Origin: an uncultured Jannaschia sp.
GTDB lineage: Bacteria; Pseudomonadota; Alphaproteobacteria; Rhodobacterales; Rhodobacteraceae
Length of the DNA stretch: 64,000 nt
Direction: 5' to 3'
Assembly (NCBI RefSeq): GCF_947494055.1
Contig: NZ_CANLTR010000013.1
Span: 1 to 64,000 of the forward strand
Below the pieces are notes generated by a model that was given only the letters and a program-made list of their open reading frames with translations, did not search any database and was not told the DNA's origin. Positions 116 to 3,555 of the stretch are shown here, one piece after another (positions within the stretch are counted from its first letter, which is position 1; each line of letters opens with the position of its first letter). The position numbers were made by a program, and so were the translations under genes.

Positions 116-325
116 TGAATTAGGGAGCGAAGGTCATGGGGCCGCCGATGCGCTTACCCCAGAAGCTGGCGGCGGCGGCCCCATGGCCGGCCCTGCCGAG
201 CGAGCAGCCTGAAAACAAGGACAGGCGACAACTCCTTTGACAAACACCGAAACCCGCCTGCGCGCCCCACCATGTTTGCGAGCGTGCCATTCGCCCTCAC
301 CGCGCACCTTGATACCGGTCCTGTC

Positions 326-366
326 CACTGCCCGGCAGGGCATTGCGCAGCAATGTCCCGAGAGGG
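326..366 (+). repeat. 41 bp palindromic insert, copy B
   Basis: A 41-base unit interrupts the IS5 transposase remnant between codons reading LMI and DRTGIK. It contains a perfect hairpin, CATTGC-GCA-GCAATG, flanked by GGG and CCC. It matches the unit at 586-626 (reverse strand) at 35 of 41 positions. Two of the six differences sit opposite two others in the stem, so base pairing is preserved. I do not recognise it as a named repeat family. Confidence 0.7.
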
Positions 367-449
367 GATCATCAGGTGCAACGGGCCGCCGCTGCCGCGG
401 TAGGGCAGTTGCACGGCCAGCATCTTTTGCCGCCGACACAGCGCCGAGA

Positions 450-495
450 CTGAGGAGGATCAGCGAGCCTTCCAGTGGAAGGATCGCCCGACGAA
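450..495 (+). repeat. Third hairpin insert in the IS5 remnant
   Basis: About 46 bases separate the transposase codons for LDWPVP from those for SALCRRQK. The insert carries a perfect hairpin, CCTTCC-AGT-GGAAGG, at 468-482. The layout (6 bp stem, 3 nt loop, CAGC before the stem and CCCGA after it) recalls the two 41 bp copies, but the stem sequence differs. It may be a diverged relative or an unrelated insertion. Confidence 0.4.
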
Positions 496-585
496 GGGCA
501 CCGGCCAGTCGAGCCCCGCCAGCTCGAGAAGGCTTGCTACGAAGCCTGTCGTTTGGCGCAGCGGCGGGCTGAACAAGACCTTGAT

Positions 586-626
586 CCCTCTCGGGACATC
601 ACCGCGTGATGCCCTGCTGGGCAGTG
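586..626 (-). repeat. 41 bp palindromic insert, copy A
   Basis: On the minus strand this unit interrupts the transposase between codons for QACLT and IKVLF. Its hairpin is CATCAC-GCG-GTGATG. It is the inverted partner of 326-366, with identical outer parts (CACTGCCC at the start, GTCCCGAGAGGG at the end). The stem shows two compensatory pair changes (C-G for T-A, A-T for G-C) relative to that copy. Confidence 0.7.
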
Positions 627-853
627 GTCAGACAGGCTTGGATCGCGGCGTCACTGTAGACTGGCTGCCCGCCGCGCTTGCCCGATGGTGCAGCGTGCCA
701 AGGCGTCGACGGGTCAAACCAGACCGTCCAAGATCCGCGCTCACGTAGCGAGGCGTTGCAAGTAGACCAGTTCAGAGTGCGGTAGCGGTTCGGAACAGGC
801 TTGGACATGCCGTCCAGCTATGCTGCTGGAGGCGCAATGTGAATTCCGGGCAG

Positions 854-1606: not shown

Positions 1607-2275
1607 ATGGCTGACAGCAATCACGATCAGAAGTCCGCCCGCGAAGCCGAACGCGACGTCGAAGCCGCCCGCGCGAACCTTGCCGGATCCATCGACAACC
1701 TCGAAGCCAGGCTGAGCCCCAATGCGCTCGTGGAGCAGGGGATCGCTTACCTTCAAGGCGACGGACGTCGGCATATCGACAAGTTGGCGCGCAATGCCCA
1801 AGCCAACCCGATTCCACTCGTCCTGATCGGGATCGGCGTCGCCTGGCTGGCATTGGGATCGAACCGCAATCCGGGCCCGAGGCGGATCGGTCGGCGGGTC
1901 CCGGATGACCGTGGATACGGCCGCGACGATTACGCGCCGGCCTCGAACGCGACCCCGTCGTCCTCGGGCCTCGGATCTGACAGAACAGGTGCTACAGATC
2001 CGAGAGACGAGCCGCGAACGACGGGTCTTGCCACTGCAGCGAGCCCCTTGCCCTCCGACAAGCCGGATGATGCGCGGCGTTCGCCCGGTGTGGCCGCAGG
2101 AACCGATCCTGCAATTTCCGACGACGCGCGACCGAAGGACGCGGCCATCGAAAATCCGGTCATCGGATCGAAGCCGAACTTGGAGGCAAGCACGGGAGAT
2201 GGCGAGGACACGCCCGCGTTCCGCGATCCGATCGCAACCGCGCATAGCGAACGGGATGAAGATAAGAACACGTAA
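1607..2275 (+). CDS. DUF3618 domain protein
   Basis: A 222-residue protein. Residues 15-45 (ARANLAGSIDNLEARLSP and its surroundings) match the conserved helix of DUF3618, and residues 68-84 form one membrane segment. The remaining C-terminal 135 residues are hydrophilic, rich in Asp, Pro, Ser and Arg, probably disordered. The start at 1607 is set by AAGGAG eight bases upstream. It shares direction and probably a transcript with the holin-like gene. Family members have no defined biochemical activity; an envelope or stress role is inferred from the neighbour and promoter. Confidence 0.75.
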   Translation: MADSNHDQKSAREAERDVEAARANLAGSIDNLEARLSPNALVEQGIAYLQGDGRRHIDKLARNAQANPIPLVLIGIGVAWLALGSNRNPGPRRIGRRVPDDRGYGRDDYAPASNATPSSSGLGSDRTGATDPRDEPRTTGLATAASPLPSDKPDDARRSPGVAAGTDPAISDDARPKDAAIENPVIGSKPNLEASTGDGEDTPAFRDPIATAHSERDEDKNT

Positions 2276-2465
2276 GCGTCCATAAAGCTTCTCGATCCAG
2301 CCCATGATATGCTCGACCTTCCTCTACGCGAGGGGGGACAAACCGAGCGGATTGCCTGCTCGACGTTTCGCGGGCGCCATATCCAGCCTGACCTTCATGC
2401 CGTCGCGTTGGATCTTGGCGCATCGGTGTCGCCGAACGCGTCAAACCGTCAGTCCCGTCTAGCCT

Positions 2466-2516
2466 TATCGCCTCACCTTGGTCATAAAGTCATGTGGCGA
2501 CAAAGGTGAGGCGCAG
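2466..2516. promoter_or_regulatory. Inverted repeat upstream of the TAXI-TRAP operon
   Basis: CGCCTCACCTT at 2469-2479 is repeated in inverted form, AAGGTGAGGCG, at 2503-2513, with 23 bases between the arms. Pairing resumes for two more bases after one mismatch on the inner side. No T-run follows, so a terminator is unlikely. A two-site operator for a dimeric regulator of the transporter, or a structured leader, fits better. The 278 bases between 2275 and 2554 otherwise show no gene. Confidence 0.4.
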
Positions 2517-2553
2517 GCCGGCCAAACAACATGCGCCGATTGGGAGGATAATG

Positions 2554-3555
2554 ATGAGAACCATTGCAACGCTTGCCGCCACCGCGGCGCTGATGGCCAC
2601 CACCGCGATTGCGCAGGACGGGAATTACGCCGACCTCGACCGCACGGGCTGGCCCGACAGCTTCACCGTCGGCACCGCATCGCAGGGCGGCACGTTCTTC
2701 GTCTATGGCTCCGGCTGGGCGAACCTCGTCGGCGAGGAGCTCGGGATCTCCGGCGGTGGCGAGGTCACCGGCGGGCCGATGCAGAACATGGCGCTCGTCC
2801 ATACCGGCGACGCGGCGTTCGGAATGACGACGATGGGCCCGGCGCGCGAGTCGCTCGAAGGCACGAACCCGATCGCCCCCGGCCTCCAGATGACGCAGGC
2901 CTGTGCCATGTTCCCGATGTACCAGACGCCGTTCTCGATGGCAGCGCTGACTGGGTCGAACATCACCTCGGTCGAATCGATTCCGGCCGGGGCGCGCATC
3001 GGCTTCGGACCTGCCGGCTCGACCTCCGACACGTACTTCCCGGCGATGCTCGAGGCGCTCGGCGTCGACTTCGAGCGGCGGAACGGCAGCTGGGACGACC
3101 TGGGCGGCCAGCTTCAGGACGGACTGCTGGACGCGGTGGCGTTCGCTGTCGGCATTCCGACGCCGGCAATCAGCCAGGCCGAGGTGCAGACCGACATCAA
3201 CTTCATCGACTTTTCCGACGAGGAACAGGCGCAGGTCATCGAGGAGTTCCCTGTCTCCGAGTTCACGATCCCGGCCGATACCTACTCGACGCTTGAAGAG
3301 GACATGCAGTCGGTCGCGATGTGGAACTTCGCCATCGCGAACTGCGACCTGCCCGAGGACTTCGTCTATGCCGCCACCGACATCGTGATGTCGGACAACG
3401 CGCGGATGGTGAACATCCACGGGTCGGCCGCGGAAACGGTGCCGGAGAACTGGAACAAGAACACGGTCCTGCAATGGCATCCCGGGGCCGCTCGCTGGTT
3501 CCAGGAGAACGCGGGCGCCGAGATCCCCGAGGACATGATCTACAGCGCGCAGTGA
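2554..3555 (+). CDS. TAXI-family TRAP transporter solute-binding protein
   Basis: A 333-residue periplasmic binding protein with a clear signal peptide (MRTIATLAATAALMATTAIAQ). It has TAXI family signatures: TVGTASQGGTFFVYGSGWANL after the signal, GFGPAGSTSDTY in the middle and a C-terminal aromatic-rich region ending in PEDMIYSAQ. It delivers a small organic acid or similar solute to the fused TRAP permease encoded next. The start is chosen at the second of two adjacent ATGs (2551, 2554) because GGGAGG ends six bases before it; an upstream in-frame ATG at 2494 has no such site and would bury the signal peptide. Substrate cannot be assigned from sequence. Confidence 0.85.
   Translation: MRTIATLAATAALMATTAIAQDGNYADLDRTGWPDSFTVGTASQGGTFFVYGSGWANLVGEELGISGGGEVTGGPMQNMALVHTGDAAFGMTTMGPARESLEGTNPIAPGLQMTQACAMFPMYQTPFSMAALTGSNITSVESIPAGARIGFGPAGSTSDTYFPAMLEALGVDFERRNGSWDDLGGQLQDGLLDAVAFAVGIPTPAISQAEVQTDINFIDFSDEEQAQVIEEFPVSEFTIPADTYSTLEEDMQSVAMWNFAIANCDLPEDFVYAATDIVMSDNARMVNIHGSAAETVPENWNKNTVLQWHPGAARWFQENAGAEIPEDMIYSAQ

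Follow-up and report, generated by a model that had tools for sequence, protein, structure and literature searches.

Single-strand transposition of the IS200/IS605 and IS91 types gives no target duplication, uses a short one-sided target, and has hairpins near the ends of the element. Mitochondrial hairpin elements, namely the repetitive hairpin, double-hairpin and bypassing elements, are tens of nucleotides long and repeated, and are mobile by unclear means; we know of no preference among them for transposase genes. The CGTC/GTAG-tagged REPs are palindromic repeats of 20-40 nt, which are described as mostly intergenic, with some lying within genes, and as carrying a tetranucleotide head, with a stem of 8-9 bp and a loop of 4-5 nt (PMC3733652). 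The same paper places the CGTC families mostly in alphaproteobacteria, with head-to-head dimers predominating, and gives them no known dedicated transposase (PMC3733652).

The element described here is a 41-nt hairpin, which occurs twice in one dead IS5-family transposase gene of the window, by which we mean the whole 64-kb stretch of DNA that was analysed. No description of it was found in the literature: four of its sequence strings occur in no paper searched, though many subscription papers lay outside the search. This agrees with a reading made earlier from the sequence only, whose author knew of no named family with this sequence.

The hairpin element and its fold

The sequence-only reading had seen one 41-mer on opposite strands within an IS5-type transposase, and direct comparison of the two units confirms this, with 35 of the 41 positions identical (Table 1). 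Both units lie between codons of the transposase, which is read on the minus strand, and they have opposite orientations. With the transposase of a relative as tblastn query, the match comes in two pieces, 808-626 and 585-343, the second of which extends slightly into copy 1. A relative is a DDE_Tnp_1_5/DDE_Tnp_1 protein (Pfam), and homology was followed as far as the continuation at 250..325. The pattern for the 41-mer matches these two copies and nothing else in the window (the mean in 100 shuffles of the window being 0), and a covariance model run on the 64 kb returns the same two copies, at 71.6 and 61 bits.

Table 1. Hairpin inserts and pieces of the interrupted transposase in the window, in order of position.
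Feature	Position	Strand	Details and basis
Transposase continuation (DRTGIKVRGEGEWHARKHGGARRR)	250..325	-	Sequence read; end coordinate approximate
Hairpin element, copy 1	326..366	-	41 nt, sense to the transposase, between codons LMI^DRTGIK; pattern and covariance model
Middle piece of the same transposase (IKVLF...LHLMI)	367..585	-	tblastn; split by an insert at about 449-496
Second, unrelated hairpin insert	449..496	+	Stem GCGA.CCTTCC / GGAAGG.TCGC, 3-nt loop; start approximate; in the same transposase
Hairpin element, copy 2	586..626	+	41 nt, the variant with compensating stem changes; antisense to the transposase, at QACLT^IKVLF; pattern and covariance model
N-terminal piece of the dead IS5-family transposase (label IS5a)	626..808	-	tblastn

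The element begins with 5'-CCCTCTC. Next comes a hairpin, with a stem of 3 bp and 6 bp parted by a single bulged A and with a loop of 3 nt, and after it TGCCGGGCAGTG; the arms on the two sides of the hairpin are 7 nt and 12 nt long. It had been read as a 6-bp stem with a 3-nt loop; the loop stands, while the stem is longer, with nine pairs in two parts. The two copies in the window differ at six positions of the unit (15, 16, 18, 22, 23 and 33). Four of these form two compensating stem pairs, 15/23 and 16/22, just as had been noted; of the others, position 18 is in the loop and position 33 in the 3' arm.

Conservation of the fold was assessed on 80 distinct copies. Of 720 stem cells 97.4% are paired, a percentage that is inflated because the copies came from a scan demanding pairing, and the compensating changes are a firmer measure of the fold. 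Changes on both sides are seen in eight of the nine pairs, a number that 7 of 500 shuffles attain, and the covariation score is 0.493, against a shuffled mean of 0.120 and with none of 500 shuffles as high. The covariation is lost when the pairing partners are slid out of register. Folding of the single strands of the window copies is unimpressive (z about -1.3, with 22 and 23 of 200 shuffles folding equally well), and gives as its best fold the 6-bp stem plus other small stems; the case for the nine-pair fold therefore rests on covariation.

Among 248 deduplicated copies the lower stem is GGG/CCC in 160, GTG/CAC in 34 and GGC/GCC in 24, and the base between the two parts of the stem is A in 231. 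A 38-nt form in genome G035 (L219, 2035-2072) is without the lower stem and has an upper stem of 7 bp, which suggests that the stem is being remodelled.

A search of positions 1-1000 of the window against Rfam gave four matches (E up to 5), none of them anywhere near the gathering score, so that no known RNA family was found there. A weak match to the Brucella sRNA family BASRCI153, at 457-497 on the minus strand, scores 20 bits where 137 are needed.

Distribution of the element and its location in transposase genes

A search of the whole genome and of related ones, together with a covariance model, had been proposed as a check, and both return further copies. In the genome of the window, 28 copies match the pattern when up to 3 mismatches are allowed, and the reversed control has no match. 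The covariance model, built from 80 copies and applied to 150 first-look candidates per genome, finds 62 in the same genome at E up to 0.01, the weakest of them at E 0.0016. Elsewhere the model finds 11 copies in G035, 16 in G075, 6 in G101 and none in G104. Pattern matches occur in 66 of 394 Rhodobacteraceae genomes, that of the window included. Taken with the covariation, these counts bear out the proposal of a dispersed hairpin element with a conserved fold. In a class-wide sample of 142 genomes, the genome of the window and G497 are positive; outside Rhodobacteraceae this is 1 of 140 alphaproteobacterial genomes.

A scan of named genomes gave at least 115 matching stretches, and among the matches listed the named carriers are mostly Rhodobacteraceae by name (among them Leisingera, Ruegeria, Sulfitobacter, Salipiger and Phaeobacter). 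There are also element-bearing contigs under names from outside this family, L087, L159 (Enemella evansiae, Actinomycetota) and L166 (Maritalea mobilis, Devosiaceae); the Enemella and Maritalea records are possibly mislabelled or contaminated assemblies. The element is present in 97 plasmid records (E up to 0.01) and matches none of the annotated phage records. In IMG/VR it is found on three contigs, each time in or beside an IS5b- or IS3-like gene.

Location was determined by homology, as classification of the strand by the longest open reading frame is unreliable at this G+C. The panel used consists of 16 transposase or IS-gene sequences, whose names are our own labels; ten of the proteins have Pfam names. 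In the genome of the window, 57 of the 62 copies adjoin demonstrable transposase sequence, belonging to several IS families. The panel itself matches within 60 nt of 49 of them (tblastn, E up to 1e-4). From the other 13, fragments touching the junction were put to Pfam for ten copies, of which eight gave transposase, IS66 or integrase-type matches (one match being barely above the cut-off) and two gave none, while the last three copies were judged by eye. One copy (L306, G000:C79:6331-6371) lies at a junction where one flank resembles an EAL-domain gene by eye, and where the fragment on the presumed transposase side has no Pfam match.

In a wider set, the panel places 162 of 224 copies in a transposase or IS gene: 97 in IS5, 32 in IS3, 9 in IS481, 7 in IS66, 6 in IstB, 3 in IS91, 2 in IS6, and one each in IS630, Tn3, IS256, IS110, IS1182 and ISNCY types. 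The panel leaves 62 of the 224 unplaced, and the near-exclusive location in transposases therefore rests on the one genome. The orientation of the 162 classified copies is sense in 116 and antisense in 46. Four further loci, the three IMG/VR contigs and G497, have an IS3 or IS5b match in at least one flank, that of G497 being some 160 nt away.

The copies recur at a few homologous positions, several of which appear to be the codons for catalytic aspartates. For IS5a, where 55 copies were mapped, the sites are LLI^DSTG (17), K^MHC (9), TA^DGAYD (7), G^DAPM (4) and R^WSGYH (4), with QTCLT (8) and LSI^WFDP (4) occupied in antisense and two copies elsewhere. We take LLI^DSTG to be the first catalytic Asp and TA^DGAYD the second, with K^MHC coming soon after the catalytic Glu. 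In IS5b, 11 of 36 copies are at R^IEIMFG and 6 of 36 around I^DATYLK; in IS66, all five mapped copies are at HA^DDTPV or HA^DGYAGF; LLIT^DELGF has two of the four in IstB; and in IS3 about 11 of 24 are around GSP^WENGY. The main antisense sites have no obvious tie to catalysis, except for two IstB copies at the ATP-binding loop.

Insertion, host genes and possible movers

Comparison of occupied with unoccupied homologues was possible for 216 copies with enough flank, with homologues taken from the fetched loci and with cases of other indels within 15 columns dropped. A single clean gap was found for 97 of the 216. The gap is 41 long in 64 cases and 40 in 27; three gaps measure 30, and there is a single case each of 38, 37 and 42. 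The unoccupied homologues are 80-90% identical in 60 cases and less so in 35. The earlier suggestion that the 41-mer is extraneous to the transposase is thereby upheld, IS5 and other IS genes having unoccupied relatives. The length is not divisible by three in 93 of the 97 (the exceptions being the three of 30 and the one of 42), and a net insert of 41 or 40 therefore nearly always breaks the reading frame.

The cleanest pair consists of an occupied IS3 from Phaeobacter sp. 11ANDIMAR09 (L170) and an empty IS3 from genome G193 (L321). Their alignment has 1261 columns at 96.1% identity and 41 gap columns, hence 8 mismatches. The junction in L170 is GGATCGC^CATGGGAG, and the pair shows a clean 41-base insertion with no duplicated bases, so that the comparison of occupied and empty sites proposed beforehand gives both an insert length and, in this pair, the absence of a target duplication. 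The empty IS3 has an open frame of 317 aa with no stops.

Flank frequencies were calculated over 78 site clusters from 219 copies (a tighter cut gives 112 clusters). On the 3' side of the insert they are G 0.85, A 0.70 and T/C 0.86, followed by mostly G or A at two positions (GAYRR), and on the 5' side only a C or T adjoining the insert stands out. As a 5-base motif this is too weak to account for the same sites being hit repeatedly. Variants of the element track sites, identity being 0.885 within a site and 0.799 between sites. Four things go beyond what had been read from the sequence: that the hosts are transposase genes of several IS families, that sites recur, that the length nearly always breaks the frame, and that the stem has a bulged lower part.

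A guide-like pairing of hairpin with target was considered and rejected: the longest shared word is 3.97 compared to 3.93 in shuffles on the forward strand (sd 0.07; 54 of 200 as high), and 4.04 compared to 3.95 on the reverse strand (31 of 200 as high). Since such pairing is unsupported, we treat as coincidence the resemblance of one variant to the L170 target (ATCGC-CATG).

It could be argued that a host or plasmid defence silences transposons by means of frame-breaking hairpins in transposase genes. Such a defence would fit the lengths not divisible by three and the frequent hits on catalytic codons, and also the unrelated mechanisms of the targets, which include DDE types, the IS91-type Y2 and IstB. 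We nevertheless consider it quite improbable, since many copies are in IS with further lesions, and since the antisense copies (46 of 162) have their main sites where there is no obvious tie to catalysis.

The age of the insertions was judged from pairs sharing a site, of which those with 15-40% ungapped flank divergence were kept (8 of 45 for IS3, 10 of 45 and 1 of 10 for two IS5b sites, and 22 of 45 for IS5a). The element is less diverged than its flanks in 8 of 8 IS3 pairs, 10 of 10 and 1 of 1 IS5b pairs, and 21 of 22 IS5a pairs. The in-frame host genes have dS values from 0.24 to 2.9, some of them saturated, and dN/dS of 0.05-0.16, the rows with L110 and L035, which are out of frame, being left out. 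Three IS5 copies of one genome have dS of 0.83-0.90 and dN/dS of 0.05-0.06, yet carry identical 37-mers. Three diverged copies from one genome already differ in their flanks at about 6 nt or less from the element, on either side. Given that the elements are less diverged than their flanks, and that the L170/L321 pair is clean, the simplest reading is recent insertion into transposases that had already diverged.

With the inserts found by the model set aside, two of 29 IS5a loci are stop-free over nearly the whole protein (L163, and L031, which also supplied the query for the comparison). L129 and L145 have one stop each, and many of the remaining loci are incomplete or more heavily damaged. 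The hosts thus include young and long-dead ones alike, and because only two of the 29 are open, many of the insertions may have entered an IS that was dead beforehand.

These two open loci, the conserved fold and the low dN/dS of some hosts are what would be expected of an intervening sequence that is removed at the RNA or protein level and leaves the IS functional, in the manner of the mitochondrial bypassing elements. We give this explanation next to no credence. The antisense copies and the other lesions of most IS5a hosts both argue against it, and, with 62 of 224 unplaced, none of the copies was shown to be in an ordinary gene, where removal would make an insert harmless. The low dN/dS can predate insertion, because the near-identical unoccupied IS with its 317-aa frame marks one insertion as recent.

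Occupied IS are themselves found in several copies. In G035 an IS5 of 919 bp is present in three identical copies, each holding two elements and, by our reading of the alignment, a nonsense codon; the unoccupied relatives are 73-75% identical. G340 has three 1353-bp IS3 copies (98% or more), again with two elements each, and fifteen 1217-bp relatives at 69%, of which both that were aligned are unoccupied. Since these occupied IS seem to be dead and have multiplied, they were presumably copied in trans. At their orfA/orfB junction the IS3 copies L225, L228, L229 and L175 have a palindrome, about GAATTGATCC-TGT-GGATCAATTC, which the aligned 1217-bp relatives are without.

The explanation that we favour, and hold to be probable though well short of certain, is that the 41-mer is a non-autonomous mobile hairpin, whose insertion is precise and whose copies survive mostly in transposase genes. 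The hairpin, probably in the form of single-stranded DNA, would be recognised by a trans-acting enzyme and joined to short GAYRR-like targets; the single-stranded form is suggested by the bulged base and by the lack of a target duplication. Insertions outside transposases would be lost or rarely made. Those in transposases would persist, because the host suffers no harm, or even benefits, when an IS is killed, and because a dead IS, with intact relatives to copy it in trans, may still pass from one species to another. One point against this explanation is that variants track sites, which free movement from one pool would not predict.

The tracking of sites would be accounted for if the element were an immobile passenger, with some old IS insertions spreading through copying in trans and through recombination between IS copies, which would move the insert to the homologous site of diverged copies. 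The multi-copy IS5 of G035 also fits this. It is rather unlikely, however, given that the flanks differ within about 6 nt, so that the longer shared flank expected of conversion is absent, and that the many IS families and 78 site clusters would require many primary insertions. There is in addition the clean insertion in an otherwise near-identical pair of IS from two genomes.

As to the enzyme that the mobile-hairpin explanation calls for, the search for linked genes covered Y1 and Y2. Movement of a REP-like hairpin by a Y1 (IS200/IS605, RAYT-type) transposase would be compatible with it: a single bulged hairpin, no target duplication and a short one-sided target would all resemble IS200/IS605. 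The Y1 domain is also somewhat commoner in carriers, being found in 11 of 30 (6 of 20 and 5 of 10, sets that may overlap) against 3 of 20 pattern-negative genomes, one of which, G101, later proved to carry elements. On the other hand, the search for a REP-associated transposase that the sequence-only reading had recommended did not find a Y1 domain in 19 of the 30 carriers (14 of 20 and 5 of 10), and it is absent from G534, the Phaeobacter genome with the cleanest recent insertion. Moreover, a scan of 26 Y1 loci, some of which overlap, gave nearby model matches only at L256 and at L392, those at L392 being weak. We therefore regard a Y1 mover as unlikely. In L392 (Leisingera aquimarina), 2130-3206 holds three weak model matches within about 1.1 kb, 0.3-1.3 kb from the Y1 gene, which is possibly a REP-like neighbourhood.

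An IS91-type (Y2) single-strand transposase would likewise be compatible with a mobile hairpin, IS91 insertion having a short one-sided target and no duplication, and Y2 was found in 7 of the 14 carriers searched, compared with 2 of 12 genomes negative for the pattern. It was not found in the other 7 of the 14, and in the 13 Y2 loci scanned, out of 23, the element is present only in L362 and L371, which makes this mover highly improbable. The Y1 and Y2 counts give no enzyme convincing support as the mover.

Wider reading and comparison with known hairpin systems

The insert at 449-496 interrupts the transposase at VP^DF. Its 40-nt core (457-496) occurs in five identical copies in the genome of the window, with flanks differing by substitutions, and is absent from the seven other genomes searched. 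A third type of hairpin is found at the IS3 site SDN^GPEF, which has a conserved DNG motif (L174, L175, G340); it is about 41 nt long, with the stem GCCATTGG/CCAATGGC, and of eight genomes, G340 has it twice and G075 gives a single, weaker match. These two kinds of insert suggest a wider habit of hairpin insertion. It is tempting to speak of 'homing hairpins', unrelated families (the 41-mer, the 449-496 insert and the SDN^GPEF insert of G340) that would spread from transposon to transposon via conserved and often catalytic codons, each variant tending to its own site, as geneless parasites and silencers of IS; we offer this as a tentative possibility, on balance doubtful.

To our knowledge, the main ground for regarding REP-type hairpins as mobile has been the way they are distributed. 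For the 41-mer there are sites seen both occupied and empty, an insert of defined length, a tendency in the target and many natural copies, which together make the mechanism testable. If the favoured explanation is true, a geneless parasite of transposons would be a new factor limiting IS in the Rhodobacteraceae, which are mostly marine bacteria. It would break several unrelated transposase families at homologous codons, and may help to explain the dead IS found there.

The sequence-only reading had suggested that the element might belong to a REP- or MITE-like family. This is not borne out: there is no GTAG/CGTC-type head, the copies in the genome of the window are mostly in transposases, and no target duplication was seen. 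MITEs are likewise small and non-autonomous, but the ends of the 41-mer, CCCTCTC and GGGCAGTG, are not the terminal inverted repeats of a MITE, and a target-site duplication is lacking in the one near-identical pair, with gaps of 41 or 40 in 91 of the 97 less similar comparisons. The Rickettsia palindromic elements are also palindromic and lie inside protein genes of an alphaproteobacterium; they keep the frame, whereas the 40-41 nt of the 41-mer breaks it (93 of 97 gaps not being divisible by three), and its hosts are transposases. The Y1/RAYT, MITE and in-frame palindromic-element readings are disfavoured.

The mitochondrial hairpin elements share with the 41-mer their size, hairpin and repetition, but their hosts are organellar, and where a bypassing element, acting in RNA, would be expected to keep one orientation to its host gene, the 41-mer has 116 sense and 46 antisense copies. 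It differs from the IS200/IS605 and IS91 types in having no transposase gene of its own and, in its genomes, no Y1 or Y2 partner that is regularly present.

With regard to the REPs, neither GTAG nor CGTC is present on either strand of the majority consensus of 80 copies, and the nearest approaches to a head, CCTC (positions 2-5) and TGTC (inside the other strand), do not adjoin the stem. The linked RAYT (Y1) of the GTAG REPs has no counterpart in 19 of 30 carriers, and only 2 of 26 Y1 loci have a nearby match. Where REPs are mostly intergenic, 57 of the 62 copies in the genome of the window are at transposase sequence. Compared to the CGTC/GTAG REPs, the 41-mer is thus set apart by its bulged 9-bp stem, its 3-nt loop and its occurrence as single copies in transposase genes.
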